Shown here one piece after another: positions 25,165 through 43,622 of a stretch of DNA of 64,000 nucleotides. Under the pieces are notes generated by a model, which searched no databases, had not been told where the DNA came from, and saw only the letters and a list, made by a program, of their open reading frames with translations. The stretch comes from Streptomyces sp. PCS3-D2 (GTDB taxonomy: Bacteria > Actinomycetota > Actinomycetes > Streptomycetales > Streptomycetaceae): contig NZ_CP097800.1 in the NCBI RefSeq assembly GCF_000612545.2, forward strand, positions 6,564,001 through 6,628,000, read 5' to 3'. The translations under genes and the position numbers were made by a program. How positions within the stretch are numbered: the first letter of the stretch is position 1; every line of letters begins with the position of its first letter.

Positions 25165-25378
25165 CTAGCTAAAGTGTGGCGCCTCCGCGGCGACTTGGGC
25201 ACGTTGGAGCACGACGCCACCCGACTCCGCCGCGGGCGGCACGGGACGGCGGGGCATGGTCGCTTCTTCGTCAAGTGATCGTTGTGCGCGGTCGGCGCCG
25301 GGGTGACGCTGGAAGCCGCTCCCGTGCCGGGCGCGGGGGTGAGTGAGGAACGAACAGGATGGCATTGGTAGTGCAGTG

Positions 25379-26038: not shown

Positions 26039-26947
26039 ATGAATTCCGTGACTCCGCAGATAACCAAGGCAGTGATCCCCGCCGCGGGACTCGGTACCCG
26101 ATTCCTCCCGCTGACGAAGGCCACCCCGAAGGAAATGCTTCCGGTGGTCGACAAGCCCGCCATCCAGTACGTGGTGGAAGAGGCGGTCGCGGCGGGGATG
26201 TCGGACATCCTCATGGTCACCGGACGCAACAAGCGGCCGCTCGAAGACCACTTCGACCGCAACTACGAGCTGGAGGAGGCCCTCCAGCGCCGTGGTGATC
26301 AGGACAAACTCAACAGCGTCTGCGCCTCCACCGAACTCGCCGACATCCACTACGTGCGCCAGCGGGACCCCAAGGGCCTCGGGCACGCCGTCCTGTGCGC
26401 CGCGCCGCACGTCGGCAGGGAGCCCTTCGCCGTCCTCCTGGCCGACGACCTGATCGACCCCAGGGACCCCCTGCTCGCCCGGATGGCCGCAGTGCGCGCC
26501 CGTCTCGGTGGCAGCGTGGTGGCCCTCATGGAGGTCGACCCGGACGCCATCCACCTGTACGGATGCGCCGCGGTCGAGCGGGCGACGGCCGCCGGCGACG
26601 GCGTGCGCATCACCGAGCTGGTGGAAAAGCCGGAGCCCGGCACCGCCCCCAGCAACCTCGCGGTCATCGGTCGCTACCTGCTCGACCCCGAGATCTTCGA
26701 GGTGCTGCGCGGCACCGGTCCCGGGCGCGGCGGCGAGATCCAGCTCACGGACGCACTGCGCACCCTGGTCCGCGCCGGCCGTCCCGTGCACGGGGTGGTC
26801 TTCTCCGGCCGCCGCTATGACACGGGGGACCGCGCCGAGTACCTGCGCGCGACGGTCCGGCTGGCTTGCGAGCGCGAGGACCTCGGCCCCGAATTCCTCT
26901 CCTGGCTGCGGGAGTTCGTCCGTTCCGAGGAGCTCGCGCCGGTCTGA
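26039..26947 (+). CDS. galU: UTP-glucose-1-phosphate uridylyltransferase
   Basis: A 302-residue nucleotidyltransferase. Motifs: KAVIPAAGLGTRFLPLTKATPKEMLPVVDKPAIQY (nucleotide loop and Lys), EDHFDRNYELE, QRDPKGLGHAVLCA, LLADDLID (metal-binding Asp), VEKPEPGTAPSNLAVIGRYLL and GEIQLTDAL. It is full length for GalU and makes UDP-glucose from UTP and glucose-1-phosphate in the cytosol. ATG 26039 has no obvious SD, so a leaderless message is possible. Housekeeping galU usually lies elsewhere, so a copy inside this cluster next to manB and strR-like genes suggests dedicated UDP-glucose supply. Confidence 0.94.
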   Translation: MNSVTPQITKAVIPAAGLGTRFLPLTKATPKEMLPVVDKPAIQYVVEEAVAAGMSDILMVTGRNKRPLEDHFDRNYELEEALQRRGDQDKLNSVCASTELADIHYVRQRDPKGLGHAVLCAAPHVGREPFAVLLADDLIDPRDPLLARMAAVRARLGGSVVALMEVDPDAIHLYGCAAVERATAAGDGVRITELVEKPEPGTAPSNLAVIGRYLLDPEIFEVLRGTGPGRGGEIQLTDALRTLVRAGRPVHGVVFSGRRYDTGDRAEYLRATVRLACEREDLGPEFLSWLREFVRSEELAPV

Positions 26948-27138: not shown

Positions 27139-28116
27139 ATGGACGACCCGAACGCAGGACACCCGGCGCCTCGGACCCCCCGAGCCGCCCACGAGATACC
27201 GGTCGGCGCACTGCTCGCCGCTGACTCCCCCCGAGCCGTCCTCGTGGACGAGGGCCACGCACAGGCCCTCGCGGACTCCGGCCGGCCCCTGCCGCCGCTG
27301 CTCGTGCACCGCCCCACGATGCGGGTCATCGACGGCACGCACCGCTTGCGGGCGGCCGTGCTGAGGGGGCGTGACACCGTCGCGGTGGTGTACTTCGACG
27401 GCAGCGCCGAGGACGCGTTCGTCCTGTCGGTCGAAGCCAACATCAGCCACGGACTCCCGCTGACACTGGCGGAGCGGACCGCGGCGGCCCTACGGATCCT
27501 GCAAACCCACCCTGACTGGTCCGACCGCGGGATCGCGCAGCGGACCGGGCTCGCGGCGAAGACCGTCGCGGCACTGCGTCGCCGGGAGGCGCCGCAGCAC
27601 GCACCGCAGGGCCGCGTCGGACGGGACGGACGCGTCCGTCCCGCCGATCCGGTCCGCGGACGTGAGGCCGCGGCCCGGCTGCTCGCGGGACGGCCCACCG
27701 CCTCCCTGCGGCAGATCGCGCGGGAGGCGGGCATCGCGCCCTCGACCGTACGAGATGTGCGCCGCCGGATCGGCGAGGGCGAGGACCCCGTACCGGCGGG
27801 CCAGCGGCGCTCCGGCGGCCCGCAGCCCCCGCCGGCCCGGCCGGCCGACCGGGGACGGGCCCGCGGACAACCACTACCCGCGCTGGTCACCGGCCTGTGC
27901 AAGGACCCCCTGCTCAGACTCAGCGAGGCCGGCAGGCTGCTCCTGCGCATGCTCGACCTCCAGGTGAGCGGCCTGCGCCAGCGCGAGCGGATCGTCGCCG
28001 CGGTACCCCCGTACCGCGCCGAGACCGCCGCCGCCGCTGCCGCGCAGTGCGCCCGCGACTGGCAGGAACTCTCGGAGGAACTGGGCCGCCGTGCCTCGGC
28101 GGAGGCGCGAGCCTGA
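27139..28116 (+). CDS. StrR-family pathway-specific transcriptional activator (ParB-like domain)
   Basis: A 325-residue protein. ATG 27139 has AGGGAGGTGG upstream. Residues about 18-105 form the ParB/sulfiredoxin-like domain: IPVGALLAADSPRAVLVDEGH, LLVHRPTMRVIDGTHRLRAAVLRG, FVLSVEANISHGLPLTLAER. The HTH region follows (PDWSDRGIAQRTGLAAKTVAALRR), then a second HTH-like stretch (ASLRQIAREAGIAPSTVRDVRRR). This is the layout of StrR, NovG and relatives, which activate aminoglycoside, aminocoumarin and glycopeptide clusters. It is probably the cluster activator and a likely target of the butyrolactone regulators. No TTA codon was found in it. Confidence 0.85.
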   Translation: MDDPNAGHPAPRTPRAAHEIPVGALLAADSPRAVLVDEGHAQALADSGRPLPPLLVHRPTMRVIDGTHRLRAAVLRGRDTVAVVYFDGSAEDAFVLSVEANISHGLPLTLAERTAAALRILQTHPDWSDRGIAQRTGLAAKTVAALRRREAPQHAPQGRVGRDGRVRPADPVRGREAAARLLAGRPTASLRQIAREAGIAPSTVRDVRRRIGEGEDPVPAGQRRSGGPQPPPARPADRGRARGQPLPALVTGLCKDPLLRLSEAGRLLLRMLDLQVSGLRQRERIVAAVPPYRAETAAAAAAQCARDWQELSEELGRRASAEARA

Positions 28117-29690: not shown

Positions 29691-29767
29691 CCCCTTCCCG
29701 TATCGCCTCCCCAGGTCCCCCTCCCCAGGTCCCCCTCCCCAAGAACTCCTCTTTCCCAAGGAACGTG

Positions 29768-30553
29768 ATGGACCTCCATATCGAAGACCGCGTATACCTC
29801 GTCACCGGCGCGTCGTCCGGCATCGGCGAGGCCACCGTCCGCCTCCTGGCCGCCGAGGGCGCCGCCGTCGTCGGTGTCGCCCGCAAGCCGTGGAGCACCG
29901 AAGGGCTCGGCGAGCGGGTCAGCACCCTGGCCGCCGACCTCACCGATCCGGCTGCGGCCCAGCAGGTCGCCGACGCCGTGGCAGCTCGCCACGGCCGCCT
30001 CGACGGCCTCGTGAACAACGTCGGCGCGCTGGAGTCCCGTACCGGCTTCCTCGACGTGAGCGACGAGCAGTGGAAGACCACCTTCGAGGTCAACTTCCAC
30101 TCCGCCGTCCGCATGACCCGTGCGGCCCTGCCCGCGCTGCTGGAGGCGGGCGCGGGGTCCGTCGTCCACGTGGCGAGCGAGGCCGCCCGCTATCCCGACC
30201 CCGGCATCACCGACTACGCCGCCTCGAAGACGGCACTGCTGTCCCTCTCCAAATCCCTGGCCGCGGAGTTCGGCGCACGGGCGGTGCGCTCGAACGTGGT
30301 CTCCCCGGGGCCCACCCGGACCGCGCTCTTCGACGCCCCCGGAGGCTTCGCCGACCAACTCGGCGAACGGTTCGGGCTGCCCGCCGACGAGGCCGTCGAC
30401 CACTTCATCCGTGAGGTGCGCCGACTGCCCAGCGGCCGCATCGGCACCCCCGAAGACGTCGCCGGCGTGATCGCGTATCTGCTCTCGCCCCTGGCGGGCC
30501 AGGTCACCGGCGCCGAATGGAGCGTCGACGGCGGCGCCCTGCGGCAGATCTGA
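29768..30553 (+). CDS. SDR-family NAD(P)-dependent oxidoreductase
   Basis: A 261-residue classical short-chain dehydrogenase/reductase. ATG 29768 is preceded by AAGGAAC. It has VYLVTGASSGIGEATVRLLA (TGxxxGxG), DGLVNNVGALE (NNxG), the catalytic Ser in VVHVASEAARYPDPGITDYAASKTALLSL (YxxxK intact) and C-terminal VTGAEWSVDGGALRQI. It should reduce a ketone or oxidise an alcohol in the cytosol. It is the first gene of a tight operon with the DHA1 MFS (8-bp gap) and the secreted FAD oxidase (overlap), so it likely acts on the same product. Confidence 0.92.
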   Translation: MDLHIEDRVYLVTGASSGIGEATVRLLAAEGAAVVGVARKPWSTEGLGERVSTLAADLTDPAAAQQVADAVAARHGRLDGLVNNVGALESRTGFLDVSDEQWKTTFEVNFHSAVRMTRAALPALLEAGAGSVVHVASEAARYPDPGITDYAASKTALLSLSKSLAAEFGARAVRSNVVSPGPTRTALFDAPGGFADQLGERFGLPADEAVDHFIREVRRLPSGRIGTPEDVAGVIAYLLSPLAGQVTGAEWSVDGGALRQI

Positions 30554-30561
30554 CCGGGCCG

Positions 30562-31824
30562 ATGCGTGCTTCCCTCCTCGCCCTCGCGGTCGGCGCCTTC
30601 GGCATCGGGACGACCGAGTTCGTCATCGTCGGCCTGCTCCCCGAAGTGGCCGACGACCTGTCCGTGTCCATCCCCTCCGCCGGCATGCTGGTCACCGGCT
30701 ACGCCCTGGGCGTGGTGGTCGGCGCACCGCTGATGACAGCGGCCGGCGCCCGGCTTCCCCGCAAGACCATGCTCGTCCTGCTCATGGCGATCTTCATCGC
30801 AGGCAACCTGCTCTGCGCCCTCGCCGGGGACTACACGGCTCTCATGGGCGGGCGGCTGATCGCGGCTCTCACCCACGGAGCGTTCTTCGGGATCGGCTCC
30901 GTCGTGGCCGCCGACCTCGTGGCCCCCGACCGGCGGGCGAGCGCCATCGCCCTGATGTTCACCGGCCTGACCCTGGCCAATGTGCTCGGCGTGCCCCTGG
31001 GAACCTTCCTGGGGCAGGAGTTCGGCTGGCGTTCGACCTTCTGGGCCGTCACCGGGATCGGGATCGTGGGGCTCCTCGCCCTGATCACCCTGGTCCCGGC
31101 ACAGCCCGCACCGCAGAGCGGGGCCCTGCGCGGCGAGCTCGCCGTCTTCCGCCGGCCCCAGGTGTGGCTGGCCCTGACCACCACCGTCCTCGGCTTCGGC
31201 GGCGTCTTCGCCTCCTTCACCTACCTCGCCCCCATGATGACGGAACGGGCCGGCTTCTCCGACGGCGCGGTCGCCTGGCTCCTCGTCCTCTTCGGGACCG
31301 GCCTGTGCGTGGGCAACGTACTCGGCGGCCGGGCCGCCGACCGGGCCCTCATGCCCAGCCTGTACCTCATCCTCGGAGGCCTGTGCCTGGTGCTGGTGGT
31401 GTTCACCTTCACCTCACGGGCCGCCCTGCCCGCCGCGGTCACCCTGGCCGCCTTCGGAGCGATCGGCTTCGCCACGGTGCCGCCGCTCCAGGCCCGCGTC
31501 ATGCAGCAGGCGGCCGGGGCTCCGGCCCTCGCCTCCGCCGCCAACATCGCGGCCTTCAACCTGGGCAACGCCCTCGGCGCCTGGCTCGGCGGCCTCGCCG
31601 TCGCCCACGGCCTGGGATGGACCTCGCCGACCTGGATCGGCGCCGGACTCGCCGCCGCCGGACTCGGGACCGCGGCCCTCTCCGGTCACCTCGATCGCAG
31701 GAGCCGCCCGAAGCCTCCGGCCGCCGAGGCGTTCCCTTCCGCACCACTCCCGCACGACCCCACCCAGCCGGTGCCGGGCACGGCACCCGTCCCCTCGTCG
31801 AAGAGAAGTGAGGTAGCCCCATGA
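30562..31824 (+). CDS. MFS transporter, DHA1 family (Cmx/AraJ-like)
   Basis: A 420-residue, 12-helix transporter. ATG 30562 follows the SDR stop by 8 bp. Signature: LLALAVGAFGIGTTEFVIVGLLPEVADDL in TM1, then VGAPLMTAAGARLPRKTMLVLLM and the TM4-5 stretch ANVLGVPLGTFLGQEFGWRSTFWAV. The C-terminal tail (about 40 residues) is Pro/Ser-rich and cytoplasmic. Such carriers export chloramphenicol-like drugs, sugars or small metabolites. The stop codon overlaps the ATG of the oxidase gene (ATGA). Confidence 0.9.
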   Translation: MRASLLALAVGAFGIGTTEFVIVGLLPEVADDLSVSIPSAGMLVTGYALGVVVGAPLMTAAGARLPRKTMLVLLMAIFIAGNLLCALAGDYTALMGGRLIAALTHGAFFGIGSVVAADLVAPDRRASAIALMFTGLTLANVLGVPLGTFLGQEFGWRSTFWAVTGIGIVGLLALITLVPAQPAPQSGALRGELAVFRRPQVWLALTTTVLGFGGVFASFTYLAPMMTERAGFSDGAVAWLLVLFGTGLCVGNVLGGRAADRALMPSLYLILGGLCLVLVVFTFTSRAALPAAVTLAAFGAIGFATVPPLQARVMQQAAGAPALASAANIAAFNLGNALGAWLGGLAVAHGLGWTSPTWIGAGLAAAGLGTAALSGHLDRRSRPKPPAAEAFPSAPLPHDPTQPVPGTAPVPSSKRSEVAP

Positions 31825-33506
31825 ACGGTGTCGACCGCCGGACCATGCTCACCCGCAGCGCGGCCGTCGTCGGAGGCGCGGCGGTGGCCGGCGCGCTCGC
31901 CGGCCCCGCGGCAGCGGCCACGAACCCCGCCGAGTCCGCGGCTTCCGGCGCGGCCGCCGGTAGCGGAGCCGTTGTGCGCCCGGGCGACCCGCGCTACGAG
32001 ATGCTCACCACCGGCAACAACCAGCGTTTCGTCGCACGCCCCGACTACATCAAGATGGTCCGCTCGACCGCGGACGCCGAACGGGCCCTCAGAGACGCCG
32101 TCCGGGCCGGCAAGCGGGTCTCCGTGCGCAGCGGCGGCCACTGCTTCGCCGACTTCGCCGCCCACCCCGAGACCGAGGTCATCATCGACTTCTCGGAGAT
32201 GACCCACGTCGGCTACGACCCCGCGCGGCGCGCCTTCGTCGTGGAGGCCGGAGCCCGCCTGATCAACGTGTACGAAGCCCTCTACAAGGGCTGGGGCGTC
32301 ACCATCCCCGGCGGCATCTGCTACAGCGTCGGAGCCGGCGGCCACATCGTCGGCGGCGGCTACGGGCTCCTCTCCCGGGCCCACGGCCTGGTCGTCGATC
32401 ACCTCTACGCCGTGGAGGTCGTCGTCACCAACGGCAAGGGAGGCGTCCGCACCGTTGTCGCCACCCGCGAGAAGCACGACCCCCACCGCGACCTGTGGTG
32501 GGCGCACACCGGCGGGGGAGGCGGCAACTTCGGCCTGGTGACCCGCTACTGGTTCCGCTCACCGGGCGCGAAGGGATCCGAACCCTCCGAGCAGCTGATA
32601 GCGCCGCCGTCCAAGGTGTTGGTGAGCGCCCTGGACTTCCCCTGGGAGCAGCTGAACGAGGCCAAGTTCACCCGTCTCCTGAAGAACTTCGGCGCCTGGC
32701 ACGCCGCGAACAGCGCCCCCGACAGCCCCTACCGCAACCTCTCCAGCCTCTTCAACGTCAGCTCCAAGGCGCACGGCAGCCTGGGCATGTTCACCCAGGT
32801 CGACGCGACCGTGCCGAACGCCCGCAAACTGCTCGACGACTACGTGGCGGCCATCACCGCCGGTACCGGGGTCACGCCCCGGGCGCTGACCCGCGCCACC
32901 GGCGAACTGCCCGCCATGCCGCAGTTCGCCGAGCCCCGCACCCTGCCCTGGCTCCAGGCGACCCGGCTCGTCGGCACCAACAACCCCACCATCACCAACC
33001 CGACCTCACGCGGTGCACACAAGTCCGCCTACATGCGCAAGAACTTCACCGACCACCAGATCTCCGCGCTCTACCGGTACATGAGCCGACCGGACTTCAA
33101 GAACCCCGACACCATGCTGGTGCTGTTCTCCTTCGGCGGCCAGGTCAACGCCGTCGCACCGGACGCGACGGCCAACGCGCAGCGGACGTCCATCTTCAAG
33201 ATGTGCTTCCAGACCTTCTGGCAGGAGGAGAGCGAAGACGCCTTCTACCTGGGCTGGCTGCGCGACCTCTACGAGGACTTCTTCTCGGCGACCGGAGGCG
33301 TGCCCCTGATCGACGACAGCACCGACGGCTGCTACATCAACTACCCCGACCGCGACATCACCGACCCCCGCCGCAACCGCTCCGGCGTGCCCTGGCAGAC
33401 CCTGTACTACAAGGACAACTACCCGCGCCTCCAGCAGGTCAAGAGGCGCTACGACCCGTCCGACTTCTTCCGCCACTCCATGTCGATCAAGCCTGCGCGA
33501 GGCTGA
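31821..33506 (+). CDS. Tat-exported berberine-bridge-enzyme-like FAD oxidoreductase
   Basis: A 561-residue BBE/PCMH-type flavoprotein. The N-terminus has a twin-arginine signal (VDRRTMLTRSAAVVGGAAVAGALAGPAAA), so it is probably exported folded. RVSVRSGGHCFADF gives the FAD-linking His, and GGICYSVGAGGHIVGGGYGLLSR gives the Cys of a bicovalent flavin. LWWAHTGGGGGNFGLVTRYWF and the C-terminal BBE segment RYDPSDFFRHSMSI are intact. Relatives include the secreted sugar oxidase AknOx and hexose/oligosaccharide oxidases. Inferred role: O2-dependent oxidation of a sugar-derived alcohol outside the cell, late in the pathway. It ends at a strong terminator. Confidence 0.9.
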   Translation: MNGVDRRTMLTRSAAVVGGAAVAGALAGPAAAATNPAESAASGAAAGSGAVVRPGDPRYEMLTTGNNQRFVARPDYIKMVRSTADAERALRDAVRAGKRVSVRSGGHCFADFAAHPETEVIIDFSEMTHVGYDPARRAFVVEAGARLINVYEALYKGWGVTIPGGICYSVGAGGHIVGGGYGLLSRAHGLVVDHLYAVEVVVTNGKGGVRTVVATREKHDPHRDLWWAHTGGGGGNFGLVTRYWFRSPGAKGSEPSEQLIAPPSKVLVSALDFPWEQLNEAKFTRLLKNFGAWHAANSAPDSPYRNLSSLFNVSSKAHGSLGMFTQVDATVPNARKLLDDYVAAITAGTGVTPRALTRATGELPAMPQFAEPRTLPWLQATRLVGTNNPTITNPTSRGAHKSAYMRKNFTDHQISALYRYMSRPDFKNPDTMLVLFSFGGQVNAVAPDATANAQRTSIFKMCFQTFWQEESEDAFYLGWLRDLYEDFFSATGGVPLIDDSTDGCYINYPDRDITDPRRNRSGVPWQTLYYKDNYPRLQQVKRRYDPSDFFRHSMSIKPARG

Positions 33507-33876: not shown

Positions 33877-35073
33877 ATGCGTTCCGTCGCCGTAGTCCTC
33901 GGCACCCGGCCGGAAGCCATCAAGTTCGCGCCGGTCATCCGCGCCCTCCAGGACGACCCGCGCTTCGAGCCCGTCGTGATCTCCACCGGACAGCACCGCC
34001 AGATGTTGGACGAGACCCTCGACGCCTTCGGCCTCAGCGCCGACGTCGACCTGAACGTGATGGCTCCCAAGCAGACCCTCTCCCAGGTCACCTACCGCTC
34101 GCTGCGCGGCCTGGAGGACTACTTCGCCGCCTCGCCCGCCGACGCCGTCCTGGTCCATGGGGACACCGCCACCACCCTCACCGGAGCCCTGGCCGGATTC
34201 CACCTGCGCATCCCCGTCGTCCACGTCGAGGCCGGACTGCGCAGCGGCCGGCTCGGCTCGCCCTTCCCCGAGGAGGGCAACAGACGGCTCGTGGCGCAGG
34301 TCGCCGCCCTCCACCTGGCCCCCACCCCCGGCAACCTCGCGAACCTGCTCCGCGAGGGCATCGCCGCCGACACCGTCACCGTCACCGGCAACACCGTCAT
34401 CGACGCCCTGCGCTGGGCCAGCGGCCGAGCGGAGAGCTACGGCGACCCGGCCCTGGCCGACCTCGACAGCGACCCGCGGCGGGTCGTCCTGGCCTCCGCG
34501 CACCGCCGCGAGGCCTGGCCGCACCTGCCGCAGATCGGCCGGGCCCTCGCCCGCATCGCCGACGAGCCCGGCGTCCGCGTCGTCGTACCGCTCCACCGCA
34601 ACCCCGTCGTCCGCGAGGCGCTCCTGCCGCACATCGGCAGCCACCCGGGCATCACCGTCACCGACCCGCTCCCCTACCTGAGCTTCTGCAAGCTCATGGG
34701 CCGCGCCGACATCATCGTCTCGGACAGCAGCGGCAGCCAGGAGGAGGGGCCCGCCCTCGGCAAGCCGACGCTCGTCCTCGGCGACGTCACCGAGCGCTCC
34801 GAGGCCATCGTGGCCGGCACCGCCTGCCTCGTCGGAACGGCCACCGACGGCATCGTCTCCCACACCCAGGAGCTGCTGCGCGACCGTGCCGCCTACGACC
34901 GGATGGCCAACGCCGCCAACCCGTACGGCGACGGACGGGCCACCGAGCGCACCGTCGCGGCCCTCGCCCACTTCTTCGGCCTCGGCCCCGCCCCCGAACC
35001 CTTCGTCCCCGAAAACGCCGTCGACGAGCTCAGCGTCGAGCTCGCCCGCACGGCCGACTTCGCCCGCACCTGA
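33877..35073 (+). CDS. non-hydrolysing UDP-GlcNAc 2-epimerase homologue (WecB/MnaA family), possibly altered substrate
   Basis: A 398-residue protein. ATG 33877 follows AAAGAGGAAGCC. Family motifs: LGTRPEAIKFAPVI, VHGDTATT (Asp96), HVEAGLRSG (Glu118), PEEGNRR (Glu132/133), ASAHRREAW (His209), QEEGPALGKPTLVL. The catalytic acids and His are kept. Two stretches deviate from my memory of the family: HRREN/SFG is HRREAWP, and RDTTERPE is GDVTERSE (Gly302 for Arg). Family mechanism: anti-elimination of UDP to a glucal intermediate, then re-addition. Here it heads the operon with the AUDH-like genes, and an anhydro-sugar-forming role is an inference. Confidence 0.85.
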   Translation: MRSVAVVLGTRPEAIKFAPVIRALQDDPRFEPVVISTGQHRQMLDETLDAFGLSADVDLNVMAPKQTLSQVTYRSLRGLEDYFAASPADAVLVHGDTATTLTGALAGFHLRIPVVHVEAGLRSGRLGSPFPEEGNRRLVAQVAALHLAPTPGNLANLLREGIAADTVTVTGNTVIDALRWASGRAESYGDPALADLDSDPRRVVLASAHRREAWPHLPQIGRALARIADEPGVRVVVPLHRNPVVREALLPHIGSHPGITVTDPLPYLSFCKLMGRADIIVSDSSGSQEEGPALGKPTLVLGDVTERSEAIVAGTACLVGTATDGIVSHTQELLRDRAAYDRMANAANPYGDGRATERTVAALAHFFGLGPAPEPFVPENAVDELSVELARTADFART

Positions 35074-35131: not shown

Positions 35132-35914
35132 ATGAGAGCCACCCCGTCCGCCGTCGAACGCCCGCTCAACTTCAGCACTCCGTACCTGAGGGCCGACCTC
35201 GTGCGCGACGCCGTGGACTACACCGTCGAGGGCCGCAGCATCGTCGTGAACCCCGGTGTGACGCCCGTGACCATCGCGGAGGAACCCCGCAAGACCATCC
35301 CCCCGCTCTCCTCCACCGTCCTCTCCGACACCCGCATCGAGAAGGCCGACGCGCTCCTCCTCCTGCGCTCCGCCCCCGACGGCACCGACATCACCGGCAT
35401 CACCGCGGAACCCGGCTGGTCCCACCTCGCCGACCTCCTCGCCCCCGGCGAGTTCCCCCGCGAGACCCCCCTGCACCGCAGCCCCCAGGACGACATCAAC
35501 ACCGTCCTGTTCGACCCGGCCCATGTGCTCGGCGAGCGCGAGACCCCCACGGACCTGCGCGAGTTCAACGTCCGCGCCAACCTCTGGTTCTCGCCCGCAG
35601 GCACCGACTGCGCCGTGCACAACCAGCACGACTTCATCGAGGTCCACACCCAGGTCCACGGCCTCGGGCGGATGCAGCGCTTCCGGGACCGCGACCACGC
35701 CACGCTCTACCAGGACGTCCTGATGAGCCCCGGCTACACCACCCCGGACCCGTTCTGCGCCACCGGTCCCCAGTGCACCTACCACTACCCCTGGCACCAG
35801 TACCGGGCCGACACCGACTGCGTGTGGCTCGCCATCGAGTACCACCCCGTACCCCGCGCCCTGCGCACCCTCTTCCCCGTGACCACCCCGAACCCTCTGG
35901 AGAACCCGTCGTGA
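35132..35914 (+). CDS. cupin-type protein resembling the cupin half of aldos-2-ulose dehydratase (AUDH)
   Basis: A 260-residue soluble protein. ATG 35132 follows GAGAGGAGCACGC. The second half has a metal-type cupin motif, HNQHDFIEVHTQVHG (His163, His166, Glu170, His172), then YHYPWHQYRA (His222) and CVWLAIEYHP. From memory, the fungal AUDH cupin has HNH...EIH, YPWH and DVWVAFEF in the same order. The first half (about 25-100) may be a degenerate first cupin. No signal peptide. Its stop overlaps the GTG of the propeller gene, so the two proteins are probably made in equal amounts and may form one enzyme. Homology should be confirmed by profile search. Confidence 0.68.
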   Translation: MRATPSAVERPLNFSTPYLRADLVRDAVDYTVEGRSIVVNPGVTPVTIAEEPRKTIPPLSSTVLSDTRIEKADALLLLRSAPDGTDITGITAEPGWSHLADLLAPGEFPRETPLHRSPQDDINTVLFDPAHVLGERETPTDLREFNVRANLWFSPAGTDCAVHNQHDFIEVHTQVHGLGRMQRFRDRDHATLYQDVLMSPGYTTPDPFCATGPQCTYHYPWHQYRADTDCVWLAIEYHPVPRALRTLFPVTTPNPLENPS

Positions 35915-37158
35915 CCACCACCGGCAACACGGGCGGAACCGCCCTGCGCGCACCGAAGTTCACCGCCGAGGTCGTAGCCGACCAGCTGCGCGACGGCTAC
36001 TGGCTGGAAGCCCCGGACATCGACGGCGACGGCAAGCCGGACCTCTTCGGCTACGGGCTGCGCCTCGGCGAGATCTACTGGTACGCCAACGACGGCGACT
36101 GGACCCGCCGCCTGATAGCCGACCGGATCAAGATGCCCGTCGGCGCCGACTTCGCCGACGTCACCGGCAACGGCCACCCCGACGTCATCGTCTGCTACGA
36201 CCTGTACGGCCCGATCGGGACCATCCACGACGCCAACACCGAAGGCGGCAAGATCGACTGGCTGGAGAACCCGGGCACCCCCGACAAGGACGAATCCCGT
36301 TGGAAGCGCCACTACGTCGGCCGGGCCACCGGGATGCACCGGCTGCGCGCCGGCCACTTCACCCGCACCGACCGGCTCCAGATCATCGGCCTGCCGATCG
36401 TCGCCAAGGAGGACGTCCACGCCGTACTGCCCGTCGTGCTGTTCACCCAGCCCGACGACGTGCACACGGCACAGGAGTGGGAGATGACCGTCATCGACGA
36501 CAGCCACTTCCGGATGATCCACGGAGCCGAGAAGAAGCAGGGCCTGATACCCGGCTCCGACCTGGAGTCCCTGCTGCTGGCCTCCGACGAGGGTGTCACC
36601 TGGCTCCACTACGACGAGGCGCGCCAGGAGTGGATCCGGGAGCTGATCGGCACGGGCGAGCTCACCCAGTTCGAGCAGACCGGATTCCGCGGCAGCGGCG
36701 ACCTCAACGCCGGCCGCCTCGGCGACGACCCGATGGCCTACGTCGCCGCCATCGAGCCCTTCCACGGCAACACGGTGGCCGTGTACACCAAGGCCGGCGA
36801 CGGGCACAGCTGGAACCGCGTCCTGCTCGACGTCTACGGCGACCCCAACGAGAACGGCGAGGGCCCCGGCCACCAGATCGTCTGCGCCGACTTCGACGGC
36901 GACGGCGACGACGAGTTCCTCGTGGCGCTGCGCGGCCCGTGGCCGTGGCAGGGCGTCATGTACTACAAGGCGATCGACGCCGCCAACGGCATCTGGGCCA
37001 AGTGGCGGGTCTCGGACGAGTCCGTCGCCCGCATCGCCACCGCCGACTTCAACGGCGACGGCCGCCTGGACTTCGCCACCATCGCGTACTCCGTGCAGAA
37101 CTACTACGTGGCCAAGGACGCCAAGCTCATGGTCCACCGCAACCAGATCGAGCAGTAG
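35911..37158 (+). CDS. FG-GAP/VCBS beta-propeller resembling the propeller half of aldos-2-ulose dehydratase
   Basis: A 415-residue protein with no signal peptide, unusual for FG-GAP proteins. Calcium-type loops occur at DIDGDGKPD (36-44), DVTGNGHPD (83-91), DFDGDGDDE (327-335) and DFNGDGRLD (379-387), consistent with a seven-bladed propeller. The stretches DGYWLEA, IDWLENPG, GMHRLRAGHFTRTDR (141-155), FHGNTVAVYTK (284-294) and YSVQNYY closely match what I recall of the N-terminal propeller of Phanerochaete AUDH. In AUDH the active site lies between propeller and cupin. The 4-bp overlap with the cupin gene supports a two-subunit version that would dehydrate 1,5-anhydrofructose or glucosone. 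Confidence 0.72.
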   Translation: MTTTGNTGGTALRAPKFTAEVVADQLRDGYWLEAPDIDGDGKPDLFGYGLRLGEIYWYANDGDWTRRLIADRIKMPVGADFADVTGNGHPDVIVCYDLYGPIGTIHDANTEGGKIDWLENPGTPDKDESRWKRHYVGRATGMHRLRAGHFTRTDRLQIIGLPIVAKEDVHAVLPVVLFTQPDDVHTAQEWEMTVIDDSHFRMIHGAEKKQGLIPGSDLESLLLASDEGVTWLHYDEARQEWIRELIGTGELTQFEQTGFRGSGDLNAGRLGDDPMAYVAAIEPFHGNTVAVYTKAGDGHSWNRVLLDVYGDPNENGEGPGHQIVCADFDGDGDDEFLVALRGPWPWQGVMYYKAIDAANGIWAKWRVSDESVARIATADFNGDGRLDFATIAYSVQNYYVAKDAKLMVHRNQIEQ

Positions 37159-37202: not shown

Positions 37203-37363
37203 CTCCCTCCCCGCACCCACGAGCCCCGACGGGCAGTCCCGCCTTCCGCGACGCCCCTGCGCGCGCCGCCCGGGACCGTGCCCCCGCCGCACGGCGGACC
37301 ACGGCCCCGGTGGCCGTCCCTCACGAAACCTCTTCCGCACCTCTTCCGAAAGAGCGATTCCCT

Positions 37364-38581
37364 GTGGCCTCCACGACGTCCTCCGACGCCGCGAAGCGGG
37401 CGAAGCTGCCCTCACTGACCGGCCTGCGGTTCTTCGCCGCCCTCTCCGTCTTCTTCTTCCACGCGTCGCTGACCGACTCCCCGATCCCGCCCAACGCCCC
37501 GATCAACCCCTTTGCCGACGCCGGCATCGCGGACTGGCTCTCCACCGCCTTCGGCAAGGCCGGGTACCTGGGCGTCTCCTTCTTCTTCGTCCTCTCCGGC
37601 TTCGTCCTCGCCTGGGCCGCCAAGCCCGGCGAGCGCGTCACCGCGTTCCTGCGCCGCCGACTGCTGAAGATCTTCCCCAACCACATCGTCGTCTTCGCCG
37701 CCGCGATGATCCTCTTCGCCGGATCGGCCGTCACCGGAGTCGCCGACTGGCTCCCCAACCTCCTGCTGATCCACACCTGGTGGCCGCAGCCCACCGTCAA
37801 CCTCAGCGTCAACCCGCCCAGCTGGTCCCTCGGCAGCGAGCTGCTCTTCTACGTGCTCTTCCCCGCGCTCGTCGTCCCGATCCGGCGGCTCCGCGGCCGG
37901 ACCGCCCTGTGGGGCTGGAGCGCCGCGATGATCGCCGGGATGGTCGCCGTCCAGCTGATAGCCACCTACTTCGTCCCCGACACCCCGAAGTCCACCATCA
38001 CACCCATCTCCGGGATGCAGTTCTGGTTCGGCTACCTGCTGCCCGCCGGCCGCCTCTTCGAGTTCGTGCTCGGCATCCTGCTCGCCCGCATCGTCCTCGC
38101 GGGACTGTGGCCGCGCCGCGTCGGCTTCGCCGTATCCCTGGTCCTGACCGTCCTCGGCTACGCCGCCGCGCTCGTCGCTCCGTTCCAGTACGGATTCGTC
38201 GTCGCCACGATCGTCCCCGTCGCCGCGCTGATCGGGGCCACCGCCAACGCCGACGTCCAGGGCCGCCAGACCTTCCTGCGCAGCCGGCCCATGGTCTGGC
38301 TCGGCGAGGTCTCCTTCGGCTTCTACCTCGTCCAGGGCGTCACGATCTTCTACCTGCGCTCGCTCCTGGGTGAGCACACCTACAGCGTTCCGGTGGCCCT
38401 GCTGGTGATCGCCGGCTTCTTCACCGCCTCGCTGCTCGGCGGCTGGCTCCTGTTCCGCTTCGTCGAGATGCCGGCCATGCGCCGCTTCGGCCGCGCCAGG
38501 CCCCGTACGCCGGCCGCACCGGCCCCGGCCCACGAACCGCCCGGCGACCGCACCCCGGTCAGCGCGTCCGTCCGGGACTGA
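37364..38581 (+). CDS. membrane O-acyltransferase, acyltransferase-3 family (OafA-like)
   Basis: A 405-residue integral membrane protein with about ten hydrophobic helices. Motifs: LPSLTGLRFFAALSVFFFHASL (catalytic His in FFHA), GVSFFFVLSGFVLAW, RRRLLKIFPNHIVVF, NPPSWSLGSELLFYVLFP and LGEVSFGFYLVQGV. The family transfers acyl groups to sugar hydroxyls of antibiotics and polysaccharides (mycarose 4-acyltransferases, Nod acetylase). GTG 37364 is chosen; GTG 37310 lacks an RBS. Downstream of the AUDH-like pair, it may acylate the sugar-derived product during export. Confidence 0.88.
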   Translation: MASTTSSDAAKRAKLPSLTGLRFFAALSVFFFHASLTDSPIPPNAPINPFADAGIADWLSTAFGKAGYLGVSFFFVLSGFVLAWAAKPGERVTAFLRRRLLKIFPNHIVVFAAAMILFAGSAVTGVADWLPNLLLIHTWWPQPTVNLSVNPPSWSLGSELLFYVLFPALVVPIRRLRGRTALWGWSAAMIAGMVAVQLIATYFVPDTPKSTITPISGMQFWFGYLLPAGRLFEFVLGILLARIVLAGLWPRRVGFAVSLVLTVLGYAAALVAPFQYGFVVATIVPVAALIGATANADVQGRQTFLRSRPMVWLGEVSFGFYLVQGVTIFYLRSLLGEHTYSVPVALLVIAGFFTASLLGGWLLFRFVEMPAMRRFGRARPRTPAAPAPAHEPPGDRTPVSASVRD

Positions 38582-38594
38582 CCCGCCCGCCGCC

Positions 38595-39515
38595 CTACCG
38601 CTCACCGCCCGCGTCGGCATCAGCCGGCGCGGGCTCCGGCGTACCCCGGCCCGCACCGGCCGCCGCGCCGGCGGTCAGGCTCGCCAGCATGCGCAGTGCC
38701 GCGTCCGAGGGGGAGGACTCGGGGGCGCTGTAGAGCAGCATCCGGTGGTTGGTGCCGTCGGTGAGGTGCAGGTTCTCGAAGTCGAGGGTCAGCGGGCCCA
38801 CCACAGGATGGTGCAGGGTCTTCGTCCCGACCGTGCAGTCCCGCACCGGATGCTTCGACCACAGCGAGGCGAAGTCCGGGCTCTGCAGCATGAGCGATCC
38901 GATCAGCTCGGCCAGCGCACGGTCCTCGGGATTGCGTCCCGCGACCAGGCGCAGTGCCGCAAGCGCGACCCGGGCCTCGCCCTTCCAGTCCGTGTACAGC
39001 TCCCGGGTGTGCGGGTCGAGGAACAGCATCCGCGTGAGGTTCGGGCGTACGGCGGGATCGTCGGGGCTCACGAAGTCCAGGTGCCCGGCGAGCAGGGCGT
39101 GCCCCAGCCGATTCCAGGCGAGCACGTTGTTGCGGCCGTCCAGGACGACGGCGGGCACCTGGGGCATCGCGCCGATCAGCCGGCGCGTGGTGTCGCGGGC
39201 GTACTCGGGGCGGGGCGAGGGGGCCCGCTTGGCGCGCGGCGGCCGGGCCAGGTTGTGCAGGTGCGCGTGCTCGTCCGGGGTCAGGCGCAGCGCCCGGGCC
39301 AGTGCGTCGAGGACGCTGTCGGAGGCGTTCGTGCTCTGACCCTGCTCCAGGTGCGTGTAGTACGTGATGCTCACGCCGGCCAGCAGGGCGAGCTCCTCGC
39401 GTCGCAGCCCGGGCACGCGCCGACGGGTGCCGTGGGACGGTAGCCCGACGTCCTCGGGCTGGAGCTGGGCGCGACGGGTGCGGAGGAACTCTCCCAGAGC
39501 GGTCGGTGTGTCCAT
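38595..39515 (-). CDS. XRE-family regulator with MmyB-like ligand domain
   Basis: A 306-residue regulator. The N-terminal HTH (about 10-75) reads VPGLRREELALLAGVSITYYTHLEQGQ and SVLDALARALRLTPDE. An MmyB-like PAS domain follows: PAVVLDGRNNVLAWNRLGHALL, RMLFLDPHTRELYTDW, and ending VRDCTVGTKTLHHPVVGPLTLDFENL. These proteins bind fatty-acid-like or other small ligands and usually control a divergent oxidoreductase or transporter gene. Here the divergent gene is DHA2 MFS copy B, 171 bp away, a probable target. Confidence 0.9.
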   Translation of the reverse strand: MDTPTALGEFLRTRRAQLQPEDVGLPSHGTRRRVPGLRREELALLAGVSITYYTHLEQGQSTNASDSVLDALARALRLTPDEHAHLHNLARPPRAKRAPSPRPEYARDTTRRLIGAMPQVPAVVLDGRNNVLAWNRLGHALLAGHLDFVSPDDPAVRPNLTRMLFLDPHTRELYTDWKGEARVALAALRLVAGRNPEDRALAELIGSLMLQSPDFASLWSKHPVRDCTVGTKTLHHPVVGPLTLDFENLHLTDGTNHRMLLYSAPESSPSDAALRMLASLTAGAAAGAGRGTPEPAPADADAGGER

Positions 39516-39677
39516 GCCTTCCAGTGTGCCGGGGGAAGGCGCCGGACGTCGCCCCGGAAGGTGGCCCTGGGAGTGCTAGCTTGCGCGGCGCCAGCACAGC
39601 CAGGGGGCTGGGTAACCCTTCCCGACCGGTCCAGAGTCGATGGCGCGACGCAACACGCCGTCGCGTGATCGAAAGGG

Positions 39678-41077
39678 AGTCTGGCGATGTCGGTTGTCGA
39701 GGGTGCGCGGGTTGATGCGGGTGGGGGGGAGGGGCCTGTTCGTTTGGATGGGCGCCTGAGGTTGGTGCTTGTGGTGTTGCTGGTGGCGCAGTTCATGCTG
39801 GCGGTGGATTTTTCGATCCTGAATGTGGCGTTGCCGGTGATCGGTGACGGGCTTGGGTTCTCGTTGTCGAATCTGCAGTGGATCGCGACGTCGTTTGCGT
39901 TGTGTGCTGCGGGTTTCACGTTGTTGTTCGGTCGGGTGGCGGATCTGTTCGGGCGGCGTCGGCTGTTCCTGGTGGGTCTGGCGGTTTTGGGTGTGTCGTC
40001 GTTGGTGGGTGGTTTGGCGACGTCGCCTGAGATGTTGATTGTGGCGCGGGTGTTTCAGGGTCTTGCGACGGCGGCGGTGACGCCTGCTGGTCTGTCGTTG
40101 TTGACGACGTCGTTTCCTGAGGGTCCGTTGCGGGAGAAGGCGTTGGGGCTGAATGGTGCGTTGATGTCGGCGGGGTTCACCACGGGTGCGATTTTGGGTG
40201 GTGTGTTGACGGATCTGCTGTCGTGGCGGTGGGCGTTCTTCATCAATGTGCCGGTTGCTCTGGTGGTGTTGGTGATTGCGCCGACGGTGATTCGTGAGTC
40301 GCGTCCGGATGTGCGTCCGAGGTTGGATGTTCCGGGTGCGACGGCGGTGACGTTGGGTCTGCTGGCGTTGGTTTATGGGTTGACGCAGGCGGGTGAGCGT
40401 GGTTGGGGTGCTCCGTCGGCGTGGGGTTGGCTGGCGGCTGGTGTGGTGTTGTTGGTGGTGTTCTATGCGGTGGAGTCGAGGTCGTCGGCTCCGTTGGTGC
40501 CGGTGAGTGTGTTGAAGAAGCGGACGGTGGCGTGGGGGAATGTTGCTGGTCTGGTTGCGTTTTTGACGGAGACCAGTTTGGTGTTCCTGATGACGCTGTA
40601 TCTGCAGGAGGTTTTGGATTTCTCGCCGTTGACGGCGGGGTTGTCGTTCGGTGTGCTGGGTGTGGGCACGGTGATCGGTGGTTCGGTTGCTCCGCGGGTG
40701 ATTGGGGCGGTGGGTACGCGGTCGACGTTGATCGTGGGTGGTGTGTTGCAGGCGGTGGCGACGCTGAGTTTGGTGGCGTTGGGTGAGACGTCTGCGTCGA
40801 TGTGGTTGTTGCTGGTCGCGACGTTCGCGGGTGGTGTGGGCAACATGTTGGTGATCGTCGGGTTCATGGTGACGGCGACGACGGGGTTGCCGGATCGTGA
40901 GCAGGGTATGGCGACGGGTTTGGCGACGATGACGCAGCAGATCGGTATCACGATGGGTACGCCGATCATGTCGGCGGTGGTTGCGGCGAATACCGACATT
41001 CATGCGGGGATCACGACCGCGGTCGTGGTCAACACCGCGATCGTCGTCCTCGGCATCCTCACCACCGTCCTCTTCCT
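39678..41077 (+). repeat. 1.4-kb direct repeat, copy B (DHA2 MFS gene)
   Basis: Appears identical to 28182-29581 from about nine bases before the start codon to about eight codons before the stop. The two copies bracket about 10 kb that includes the SDR, oxidase, epimerase, AUDH-like and acyltransferase genes. Homologous recombination between them could delete that segment. Confidence 0.92.
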
Positions 41078-41102
41078 GCGGGCCAAGCAGACCGGCAACT
41101 AA
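39687..41102 (+). CDS. MFS multidrug exporter, DHA2 family, copy B
   Basis: A 471-residue protein identical to copy A through LTTVLFLR and differing only in the last residues (AKQTGN). It has the same 14-helix DHA2 layout and G/T-rich third codon positions. Upstream sequence is unrelated to that of copy A except for the RBS-proximal bases (GAAAGG.AGTCTGGCG), so the two copies are under different control: copy A behind the StrR-like gene, copy B divergent from the XRE/MmyB regulator. Likely export or resistance. Confidence 0.93.
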   Translation: MSVVEGARVDAGGGEGPVRLDGRLRLVLVVLLVAQFMLAVDFSILNVALPVIGDGLGFSLSNLQWIATSFALCAAGFTLLFGRVADLFGRRRLFLVGLAVLGVSSLVGGLATSPEMLIVARVFQGLATAAVTPAGLSLLTTSFPEGPLREKALGLNGALMSAGFTTGAILGGVLTDLLSWRWAFFINVPVALVVLVIAPTVIRESRPDVRPRLDVPGATAVTLGLLALVYGLTQAGERGWGAPSAWGWLAAGVVLLVVFYAVESRSSAPLVPVSVLKKRTVAWGNVAGLVAFLTETSLVFLMTLYLQEVLDFSPLTAGLSFGVLGVGTVIGGSVAPRVIGAVGTRSTLIVGGVLQAVATLSLVALGETSASMWLLLVATFAGGVGNMLVIVGFMVTATTGLPDREQGMATGLATMTQQIGITMGTPIMSAVVAANTDIHAGITTAVVVNTAIVVLGILTTVLFLRAKQTGN

Positions 41103-41174
41103 GGCAACTCCGCCTTGTGACAGACCTGCCGAGGCGGCGAACGTTGGCCCCAGGCACGGAGGGAAGGAACCCCG

Positions 41175-42068
41175 ATGGCAACACCCACCCACTCGGCCCC
41201 CGGACAGAGCCGTGCCCAGGTCCGCTGGGAACACACGAGTATTCCCTCCCCGTCCGGCCCCGTCCCCGCCCGGGTGTACCGGCCTGCGGCGTCCGCACCA
41301 CAGGGCTGGCTGGTCTGGGCCCACGGCGGCAGCTGGCGCGCCGGCTCCGCCCAGGACTGGCACGGCCCCACCGCCGACCTCGCCCGGACCTCGGGCTTCG
41401 CCGTCGCCAGCATCGACTACCGGCTGGTCCCCGAAGTACGCCACCCGGCCATGGTCGAGGACGTACTGGCGGCGCTCGCCTGGGCCCGGAGGCAGGCGCG
41501 GGAACAGGCGGGTGAACAGGCCGGGGAACAGGCCGGGGAGCTCGTGCCCGTCGCGGTCGGCGGAGACAGCGCGGGAGCGACGCTCGCCGCCTGTGCCGCC
41601 CTCGCCTGCCGTGACCGGACCCTCCCGCTCGCCGCCCAACTGCTCGCCTATCCGCCGCTGGACCCCGGCTGCACGGCGGCCTCGTACCACCGCTTCCCCG
41701 ACATGTTCCCCACCGCCTCCTACCTGAAGGCGGCCTGGCGGGACTACCGGGACCCGGGCCGGCCCGACGCCGCCGACGGCACCCGCCTCTACAGCACCCC
41801 CTTCGAGGCGGCCGACCTGCGCGGCGTGGCACGAGCCGTCCTGGCCACCGGCGACCTCGACCCCGTCAGTGACGACGTGCACCGCTACGCCCGCCTGCTG
41901 CACACGGCCGGAGTGGAGGTCACCCTGCGGGAGTTCGGACAGACCGGCCACGGGGCGTTCCTCCAGCCCGGCCGCGCCACGGGCGCCGCATCCGAGACGG
42001 CGTCCCTGCGTGGCTGGCTGGGCAGCGCCCTGCGCCTGCTCACCACACCGGCCGTTCCCCGTGCCTGA
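41175..42068 (+). CDS. alpha/beta hydrolase (HSL/carboxylesterase type)
   Basis: A 297-residue soluble alpha/beta hydrolase. HGGSWRAG gives the oxyanion-hole HGG motif, SIDYRLVPEVRHPAMVEDVLAAL is typical of the family, GGDSAGA contains the nucleophile Ser, GDLDPVSDD the Asp, and TGHGAF the His. It would cleave an ester or lactone. A 12-bp DNA repeat (41502-41540) encodes EQAGEQAGEQAGE, a lengthened helix before the active-site strand. It starts 73 bp after the MFS stop and is followed by two genes in the same direction, probably one transcript. Confidence 0.88.
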   Translation: MATPTHSAPGQSRAQVRWEHTSIPSPSGPVPARVYRPAASAPQGWLVWAHGGSWRAGSAQDWHGPTADLARTSGFAVASIDYRLVPEVRHPAMVEDVLAALAWARRQAREQAGEQAGEQAGELVPVAVGGDSAGATLAACAALACRDRTLPLAAQLLAYPPLDPGCTAASYHRFPDMFPTASYLKAAWRDYRDPGRPDAADGTRLYSTPFEAADLRGVARAVLATGDLDPVSDDVHRYARLLHTAGVEVTLREFGQTGHGAFLQPGRATGAASETASLRGWLGSALRLLTTPAVPRA

Positions 42069-42119
42069 GGGGCTCACGCGCCTCCCGTCCCTACGCCAAC
42101 CCCCCTACCTGGAGCCGAC

Positions 42120-42638
42120 ATGAACGCCGACAGCCCCAACCTCGATGCCCTGCTCAGGCATTTCGCCGACCTCCGGGACGGCCACCACGGCGGCGCCGTC
42201 ACCCGCCCGGACAAGGAGGAGCACTTCCGCACGGCCGCCCGGCTCCTCGACCCGTACGCCCGCCGGGCACTCACCGAACTCAACGACGAACTCCTCCTCG
42301 GCCAGGGCGTGGTCGATGCCAGCGGTGTCCAGCGGGCGGAGGACGGAACCCTCTTCCACGCCTGGACCCTGTGGTGGGACGAGCAGTCGACCGCGGACAT
42401 CCCGCCGGTCACCCTCTACGCCCACTACGGCGCGGGCTTCCACCACCCGCACCTGCGCGGCGCCACGGTCTCCGAGTGGCCGCTGAACGTCTTCGACGAG
42501 GAGCAGGCCGCCGCCGAACTCCCCACGATGCGCGCCATCGCCGCCGCGGACCTCCACAACCTCGTCTTCGAACGGGACTTCAGGATCGTCCCCGCGACCG
42601 TGGCGGGCGCCACCGGCCTTCCCGCACACCAGCACTGA
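42120..42638 (+). CDS. uncharacterised protein with His-rich segment
   Basis: A 172-residue soluble protein I do not recognise. It has an acidic/helical N-terminal half (LDALLRHFADLRDGHHGG; RTAARLLDPYARRALTELNDELLLGQG). In the middle are WTLWWDEQSTADIPPVTLYAHYGAGFHHPHLRG and SEWPLNVFDEEQAA. The cluster of histidines (HYGAGFHHPH) could bind metal. It sits 51 bp after the hydrolase and 18 bp before the LLM flavoprotein gene, so it is probably in the same operon; a partner or small enzyme of the pathway is possible. Confidence 0.6.
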   Translation: MNADSPNLDALLRHFADLRDGHHGGAVTRPDKEEHFRTAARLLDPYARRALTELNDELLLGQGVVDASGVQRAEDGTLFHAWTLWWDEQSTADIPPVTLYAHYGAGFHHPHLRGATVSEWPLNVFDEEQAAAELPTMRAIAAADLHNLVFERDFRIVPATVAGATGLPAHQH

Positions 42639-42656
42639 ACCGAAAGGGCGTCCGCC

Positions 42657-43622
42657 ATGACGAAGCCGCGACTGTCCGTACTGGACCAGACCCCCGTCGG
42701 CGAGGACCACACCCCGGACCAGGCGCTGCGCGCCTCCGTGGACCTGGCCCGCGCCGCCGAGGACCTCGGGTACACGCGCTACTGGGCCGCCGAGCACCAC
42801 GGCTCCCCGGGCTTCGCGAGCAGCGCCCCCGAGATCCTCGCGGGAGCCCTGCTCGCCCGCACCTCGCGCATGCGCATCGGCACCGGAGGGGTGCTGCTGC
42901 CCCGCTACGACCCGGCCAAGGTCGCCGAGGTCTTCGGTGTGCTCGCCTCCCTCCACCCGGGACGCGTCGACCTCGGCATCGGCCGGGCCGGCGGTCCCGC
43001 ACGGGACTTCCCGCAGCGGCTCGCCGAACTGAGCAGACTGCTCGGCGCGGGCGGTGTCGTACCGCACCCGCCGGTACCGCCGCAGATGTGGCTGCTGGGC
43101 GCGGGACGCGAGTCGGCGCGGCTGGCCGGCCTGTTGGGCACCGAGTTCGCCTTCGGGCACTTCTTCTCCCCGACGGGCGGCGAGGAGGCGTTCGGCGACT
43201 ACCGCTCCCAGTACCGCAGGGCCACGGGCCGGCCCGGCGGCGGCGCCCTCGCGGTGCGCGTGGTCACGGCCGACAGCGCAGGCCGTGCCGAGGAGCTGGC
43301 CCAGAGCCTGCTGTTGTGGCGTGCCCGCAAGGACCTCGGGCAGGACGCCCCGCTGCCGTCGTACGAGACCGTGCGGCGCCACCGCTGGACGGGAGCGGAG
43401 CTGGAACGGGCCAAGGTGCACCGCACGGCCCTCGTCTCCGGAGCGCCCGAGCAGGTGCACGCCGTGCTGACGGGTCTCGCCGCTGCCCACGGAGTGGACG
43501 AGCTGATCGTGAACACCCTGACGGCGGATCCAGCAGACCGGCGCCGCTCCTACGAGCTGCTGGCCCAGGCCTTTGACCTCCCGGCGGAACGGCGTGAGGC
43601 AGCGGTGCCGGCCGCCCGCTAG
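42657..43622 (+). CDS. LLM-class flavin-dependent oxidoreductase (MsnO8-type)
   Basis: A 321-residue luciferase-like monooxygenase. ATG 42657 follows GAAAGGGCG. Typical motifs: LSVLDQTPVGEDHTPDQAL, ARAAEDLGYTRYWAAEHHG, LLARTSRMRIGTGGVLLPRYDPAKVAEVFG, LHPGRVDLGIGRAGG, WLLGAGRESARLAGLLG. It needs reduced FMN (supplied in trans) and inserts oxygen or oxidises a substrate. The nearest recognisable subgroup is the MsnO8-like family found in many secondary-metabolite clusters. It is the last gene of the putative cluster before degraded sequence. Confidence 0.9.
   Translation: MTKPRLSVLDQTPVGEDHTPDQALRASVDLARAAEDLGYTRYWAAEHHGSPGFASSAPEILAGALLARTSRMRIGTGGVLLPRYDPAKVAEVFGVLASLHPGRVDLGIGRAGGPARDFPQRLAELSRLLGAGGVVPHPPVPPQMWLLGAGRESARLAGLLGTEFAFGHFFSPTGGEEAFGDYRSQYRRATGRPGGGALAVRVVTADSAGRAEELAQSLLLWRARKDLGQDAPLPSYETVRRHRWTGAELERAKVHRTALVSGAPEQVHAVLTGLAAAHGVDELIVNTLTADPADRRRSYELLAQAFDLPAERREAAVPAAR

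Follow-up and report, generated by a model that had tools for sequence, protein, structure and literature searches.

The cupin and propeller gene pair

The 64,000-nucleotide stretch of the Streptomyces sp. PCS3-D2 genome analyzed here (positions 6,564,001 to 6,628,000 of contig NZ_CP097800.1; hereafter, the window) contains a cupin gene and an FG-GAP β-propeller gene. Based on sequence comparisons, this pair appears to be a split, two-gene bacterial form of aldos-2-ulose dehydratase (AUDH), with the assignment of the cupin being probable, not certain. The genes encode proteins of 260 and 415 residues (Table 1) and overlap by 4 bp at GTGA, and a WecB-type gene is located directly upstream of them. 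The motifs quoted in an earlier, sequence-only reading of this DNA (GMHRLRAGHFTRTDR, FHGNTVAVYTK, and DGYWLEA for the propeller; HNQHDFIEVH and YPWH for the cupin) are all present in the translations, and inspection of both N-termini by eye agrees with its statement that neither product carries a signal peptide. Because the longest open reading frames of both frames show a strong, coding-like third-position GC bias, and because syntenic homologues of both genes are present in many genomes, the two genes are not chance reading frames. Among 57 related loci that carry the cupin and the propeller on one strand, 16 showed a 4-bp overlap when start codons were picked by script. In L045 and in L063, two related loci, the reading frame of the cupin seems short or shifted, by sequencing error or decay.

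Relationship to AUDH

The propeller is, by homology, a clear relative of AUDH, as had been proposed from the sequence. The Pfam family AUDH_beta_propeller (PF22301) matches residues 112–294 (2e-56, 191 bits against a cut-off of 27), and a phmmer search of the PDB gave a single match, AUDH from Phanerochaete chrysosporium (4a7k, 1.6e-74), with residues 14–405 aligned to residues 19–426, nearly the full length of the propeller. His143 aligns with AUDH residue 155 (counted by hand along the 4a7k alignment), which we take to be the proposed catalytic histidine, and His143, His204, His285, and His321 are invariant among 13 propeller homologues. We propose that this stand-alone AUDH-type FG-GAP propeller is a 1,5-anhydro-D-fructose (AF) dehydratase. 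No relative of the propeller was found among viral contigs.

A relationship of the window cupin to the AUDH cupin is probable. Of 39 cupin homologues, 32 match AUDH_Cupin (PF18637; best 6.9e-6), which is the only Pfam family to recur among them; any other family was matched by at most two. Nine of ten cupins scanned singly matched PF18637, none above 20.5 bits, and mostly on model positions 167–243 or 275–307, in the second half of the model. His163, His166, Glu170, His172, and His222 are invariant in the cupin family. A PDB search with the cupin alone returned one match (E 0.91) and nothing convincing. The window cupin may be related to the cupin region of AUDH but shortened, and we propose that it is a stand-alone AUDH-type ascopyrone isomerase/tautomerase.

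In contrast to the two short window proteins, AUDH is a single chain of approximately 900 residues. AUDH has a C-terminal lectin domain, for which the window proteins are too short. The window also differs in that the genes belong to a bacterial operon with a WecB-type gene and that the cupin gene lies upstream of the propeller gene. The sequence-only reading had assumed one active site common to propeller and cupin, which we consider unlikely. The 2012 paper by Claesson on the 4a7k structure reportedly describes two zinc sites, approximately 60 Å apart, with dehydration occurring in the propeller; our doubt derives entirely from this account. Two such distant sites would fit a two-gene arrangement and, if the account is correct, a lack of contact between the two chains would not count against a split AUDH. 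The fungal AF pathway, reportedly described by Yu in 2004, consists of an α-1,4-glucan lyase, an anhydrofructose dehydratase, and an ascopyrone tautomerase. Its separate dehydratase and tautomerase would match the propeller and the cupin. In the fungal pathway, a GH31 lyase forms AF from starch or glycogen, whereas in the window the WecB-type enzyme is proposed to form it from UDP-glucose.

Partners of AUDH-type propellers

We compared 92 loci with AUDH-type propellers, comprising the best 80 of 102 relatives found in a scan of species genomes by propeller similarity and 12 other loci, some of which come from genomes that were also scanned (L029/L064 and L030/L057, by contig). A gene was regarded as present when tblastn gave a match of more than 60 bits within the stretch examined around the propeller. 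Nineteen of the 59 stretches of WecB type described below were shorter than 19.9 kb, and one of the remaining 33 loci, L059, is cut at the propeller, where its stretch starts.

A WecB-type gene was found near the propeller in 59 of the 92 loci, all of which also have the cupin (54 of 54 when the scan loci are taken alone); those with a named host represent 19 genera in two phyla. Among the genes joined to the pair in these loci, WecB is the one constant extra. GalU is present in 22 of the 59 loci, as against 0 of the 33 others. In eight loci (L097–L104; six cyanobacteria, a Paenibacillus, and a Bacteroidota metagenome-assembled genome), the pair is instead accompanied by a gene for a GH31-like protein of approximately 1000 residues; the cupin is present in all eight and WecB in none. 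Other partners are pyranose-oxidase-like proteins (13 loci), a GMC oxidoreductase with a ferritin-like protein (5), and ThuA-like proteins (6), and neither cupin nor WecB was detected within the stretches examined in these 24 loci. Because it occurs with WecB or GH31 partners and not with oxidase or ThuA partners, the cupin goes with an expected supply of AF; it was not seen where an oxidase-made keto sugar is the expected input. The sequence-only reading had regarded a signal-controlled streptomycete cluster as a new setting for this chemistry. In this Streptomyces genome, the cluster around the pair does include AfsA, ScbR-like, and StrR-like genes, but the pair recurs in many genera. The sequence-only reading made no use of the adjacent upstream WecB-type gene or of the neighboring GalU and phosphoglucomutase genes.

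All eight GH31-like partner proteins contain the motifs WQDMTTP and TNIT, which in L098 align with Asp553 and Asn459 of the α-1,4-glucan lyase structure 2x2h (offset counted by hand). A portion of PMC12441222 describes Asp553 (in WQDMT-P) and Asn459 as lyase residues of the GH31 α-1,4-glucan lyase. From these motifs and the gene neighborhood, the GH31 loci are predicted to encode a complete bacterial anhydrofructose pathway. No lyase motif was found in the WecB-type stretches examined. In the genome that contains the window, the best GH31 match has the hydrolase-type motif WHDMNEP, and a weaker match (47 bits) has neither the lyase nor the hydrolase motif.

Within the genus, the propeller family was found in 19 of 296 genomes, of which 12 have the window type, 5 a pyranose-oxidase-like gene with a TIM-barrel gene, 1 a ThuA neighbor, and 1 a partial locus. 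A WecB query of the same 296 genomes gave 12 matches with at least 67% identity, in the same genomes and places as the window propeller type, and the next match had 56%. Across 394 genomes of the class, PF22301 occurs in two (the window's own and one other), and no WecB other than that of the window exceeds 55% identity. Pairwise distances of WecB, cupin, and propeller correlate (0.74–0.91) over 56 of the 59 loci (all but L045, L048, and L076, whose cupin rows were not used); common ancestry alone could produce such a correlation.

The loci with oxidase or ThuA partners form sets of their own. Propellers lie beside pyranose-oxidase-like and AP_endonuc_2-type TIM-barrel genes in L032–L035, L037, L077, L090–L093, L105, L113, and L116, where the absence of the cupin from the stretches examined perhaps indicates a glucosone or 3-keto-sugar route. 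A ThuA-family gene lies near the propeller in L036, L109–L112, and L117 (confirmed by Pfam for L036), and this neighbor suggests a role of the propeller with 3-keto sugars. In L021, L107, L108, L114, and L115, the propeller is found with GMC oxidoreductase, ferritin-like, TIM-barrel, and glycogen-debranching or glucosidase-like genes.

The linked WecB clade

The trees used 28 of the 60 linked WecBs and left out most propellers. In the 70-row tree, the 28 linked WecBs form a single clade with support of 100/99, which spans actinomycetes and alpha-, beta-, and gammaproteobacteria. The clade resembles the non-hydrolyzing UDP-N-acetylglucosamine (UDP-GlcNAc) 2-epimerases (WecB/MnaA and KasQ) in its family score and its homology to solved WecBs, and the catalytic Asp, Glu, Glu, and His are kept in 60 of 60 sequences. 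It differs from them in its linkage to AUDH-type genes and in several replacements (E. coli numbering). The β-phosphate-binding Gly291 is replaced by Ser (DSSG, not DSGG), Ala297 by Gly, and Val304 by Thr in all 60 sequences, and Thr97, two residues after the catalytic Asp, is replaced by Ala in 59 and by Gly in one. The β-phosphate site has Gly in unlinked members of the family (42/42, 6/6 of another subtype, and 28/28; 75 distinct in total, because the gene L144/L200 was counted in two sets). The six rows of the other subtype were kept outside the main residue counts and checked separately, and a 64-residue WecB fragment was left out. The second WecB-family member of the window's genome is approximately 33% identical to the cluster copy.

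In the family mechanism, as outlined in sections of PMC8869731, PMC11464976, and PMC4793188, UDP is removed from UDP-GlcNAc to give 2-acetamidoglucal. Hydrolyzing epimerases release UDP, whereas in non-hydrolyzing ones UDP and the sugar reunite, according to part of PMC4793188. The Ser of the linked clade is a feature shared with the hydrolyzing epimerases (GNE and NeuC): in human GNE, a Ser at this site, mapped here by motif, binds the β-phosphate and is described in the same part of that paper as conserved in hydrolyzing epimerases. The best family model for the window protein is wecB, not NeuC.

Proposed pathway and alternatives

We favor, with moderate confidence, a pathway in which the WecB-type enzyme supplies AF from UDP-glucose, the propeller dehydrates it, and the cupin isomerizes the product. 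Homology, linkage of the genes, the structure of the clade, and the replaced residues were observed here; all substrates and products of the scheme, and the sequence of its steps, are inferred from them. Phosphoglucomutase and GalU would provide UDP-glucose, from which the WecB-type enzyme would remove UDP by anti-elimination to give 2-hydroxyglucal. Because 2-hydroxyglucal is the enol of AF, its tautomerization would render the step irreversible, and the enzyme would be a UDP-glucose lyase, not an epimerase. The propeller would then dehydrate AF to an ascopyrone-type enone, with His143 as the likely proton-transfer residue, and the cupin, as a separate metal enzyme, would isomerize the ascopyrone intermediate to a microthecin-like pyranone. 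The identity of this product is a guess from AUDH chemistry. The pair would thus constitute a two-enzyme bacterial form of AUDH, which is probably cytosolic. For the feeder step taken separately, we lean slightly toward the view that the dedicated WecB-type clade of actinomycetes and proteobacteria forms AF outside GH31, as a UDP-glucose lyase that could also be called a 1,5-anhydrofructose synthase. In the titles and opening lines of abstracts of open-licence papers, we found no description of the cluster or of a route from UDP-glucose to AF, which is weak evidence of absence.

Several observations weigh against this scheme. The AUDH-type assignment of the cupin made in the sequence-only reading is only partly borne out: most of its homologues match PF18637, but the window cupin itself scores only 10.6 bits with this model, below the cut-off of 25, and a profile of the 39 cupins matched no PDB chain. 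The WecB-linked propellers form one group, with modest support (90/73). GalU is present in only 15 of the 40 WecB-type loci of at least 19.9 kb, and loci without it would depend on housekeeping UDP-glucose. The only GH31 proteins compared with the PDB (L098 and L099) score higher with maltase-glucoamylase than with the lyase, so the lyase assignment is drawn from the residues and the neighbors. In the linked WecBs, Gly297 and Thr304 (window residues 291 and 298) are not exclusive to the clade, since they occur in 5/42 and 1/42 unlinked members, respectively; the Arg of hydrolyzing epimerases (equivalent to Arg113) is absent, Thr being kept in 60/60; and nearly all sequences retain the residues that form the allosteric site for UDP-GlcNAc, which fits continued use of this substrate. 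In KasQ, a canonical relative, UDP-glucose was bound in the crystal, yet neither 2-hydroxyglucal nor UDP-mannose was seen, as stated in a portion of PMC8869731. An ordinary WecB therefore does not perform the elimination on UDP-glucose, and the changes fixed in the clade must matter if the proposed pathway is right.

The kept allosteric and catalytic residues lead to the alternative that we take most seriously, which is nevertheless rather unlikely. The WecB-type enzyme may act on UDP-GlcNAc and release 2-acetamidoglucal (or ManNAc), and the pair may dehydrate and isomerize the acetamido analogue to a nitrogen-bearing pyranone. KasQ gives 2-acetamidoglucal upon long incubation, with no turnover of UDP-glucose, in the same portion of PMC8869731, and most WecB-type loci lack GalU within the stretches examined. 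On the other hand, GH31 proteins with glucan-lyase residues, which are expected to make AF, are accompanied by the same cupin family, the window cluster contains both GalU and phosphoglucomutase genes (no search for amino-sugar genes was made elsewhere), and the active-site changes are fixed in 59 or 60 of the 60 linked WecBs.

Fungal AUDH also acts on glucosone. The pair may accordingly use glucosone or another keto sugar made by an oxidase, with the WecB-type gene belonging to another branch, a reading that we consider improbable. It would agree with the 13 loci in which related propellers adjoin pyranose-oxidase-like genes (one such protein was compared with the PDB), but none of these 13 has the cupin. 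The best pyranose-oxidase match in the window's genome reaches only 28.5 bits. The FAD oxidase of the cluster has a Tat-like leader, as judged by eye, and no homologue was seen in 12 of the 59 WecB-type loci, including 8 of the 40 long ones, whereas the cupin is present in 59 of 59.

It is very improbable that the WecB-type protein is an ordinary epimerase that makes UDP-ManNAc (or UDP-mannose) for glycosylation and is linked to the pair by chance. Its family score is far above the wecB cut-off, but the linkage extends over the 59 loci and their 19 named genera in two phyla, and the proteins form a distinct clade with fixed changes. Glycosyltransferase models matched only the WecB protein itself among 20 window proteins, and inspection of the smallest clusters by eye revealed no glycosyltransferase. 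FG-GAP propellers are frequently binding modules, but a binding or scaffold protein in place of an enzyme is equally improbable here, given the AUDH-specific domain and the four invariant histidines.

If the proposed pathway is correct, the likely novelty is the feeder, a WecB-derived UDP-glucose lyase. It would represent a second bacterial route to AF, starting from a central metabolite, and would open a cytosolic AF pathway based on nucleotide sugars, in which split AUDH enzymes lead to pyranone natural products. Small pyranones are then predicted across Streptomyces, Saccharothrix, Cryobacterium, Xenorhabdus, Serratia, and others. A natural control is available in the cyanobacterial loci, where a lyase-like GH31 gene adjoins the cupin and propeller genes. 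In the review PMC12441222, E. coli is described as making AF via an undefined pathway, and fungal counterparts of the pyranones are reported to be antibacterial. A Streptomyces plasmid has a similar gene order, annotated as UDP-N-acetylglucosamine 2-epimerase, hypothetical protein, and VCBS repeat-containing protein; under the proposed scheme, these genes would become a readable pathway.

Surrounding cluster

Table 1. Genes of the cupin/propeller pair and of the surrounding cluster (window coordinates).
Feature	Position	Strand	Remarks
Cupin gene	35132..35914	+	ATG start 35132, stop 35914; 260 aa
Propeller gene	35911..37158	+	GTG start 35911, stop 37158; 415 aa
WecB-type epimerase homologue	33877..35073	+	TIGR00236, 391 bits (cut-off 210); start by homology; proposed UDP-glucose lyase
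GalU (UTP-glucose-1-phosphate uridylyltransferase), cluster copy	26039..26947	+	TIGR01099, 334.8 bits (cut-off 326.8)
Phosphomannomutase/phosphoglucomutase	22416..23789	+	NF007088, 755.7 bits (cut-off 618)
Short-chain dehydrogenase/reductase	29765..30553	+	PF13561, 3.5e-53; proposed tailoring step
MFS exporter, Cmx/CmrA-like	30547..31824	+	Below the cut-off of that model; start uncertain
Berberine-bridge-type FAD oxidase	31821..33506	+	PF01565, PF08031; Tat-like N-terminus by eye
Acyltransferase family 3	37310..38581	+	PF01757, 6.4e-28; start uncertain
StrR-like transcription regulator	27139..28116	+	L020 homologue annotated as streptomycin biosynthesis regulator; weak helix-turn-helix matches
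ScbR-like TetR regulator	25343..25981	+	NF041196, 136.9 bits, below cut-off of 150
AfsA-type butyrolactone signal synthase	19617..20597	-	PF03756, 1.7e-46
Syntenic side block	38595..43622		MmyB-like regulator (-), second MFS, alpha/beta hydrolase, 172-aa protein, luciferase-like monooxygenase

Tailoring and export of the product would fall to the short-chain dehydrogenase/reductase, FAD oxidase, acyltransferase, and MFS pumps, with regulation of the butyrolactone/StrR type. The presence of the oxidase, acyltransferase, and exporters suggests that the pyranone is modified and secreted. Homologues were found across the 59 WecB-type loci for the MFS exporter (48), the FAD oxidase (47), and the acyltransferase (47). 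The best PDB matches of the FAD oxidase are TamL (542 bits), the putative hexose oxidase 2wdw (512), and AknOx (508). A second GalU copy elsewhere in the window's genome scores higher than the cluster copy.

AfsA and TetR-type regulator genes lie further upstream in the cluster. A DDE_5 transposase gene (23883–25274, minus strand) is located between the phosphoglucomutase and ScbR-like regulator genes, so rearrangement may have occurred on the left side of the cluster. In L076 (Streptomyces sp. WAC08241), there are multiple matches each for WecB, the propeller, GalU, and the berberine-bridge-type oxidase, as if the cluster were duplicated.

Homologues of the side block occur together in L022, L024–L028, and L030, with a partly different order or orientation. 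Its 172-residue protein (42120–42638) has no Pfam match; a homologue is present in 27 of the 59 WecB-type loci and often adjoins the luciferase-like monooxygenase and alpha/beta hydrolase genes.

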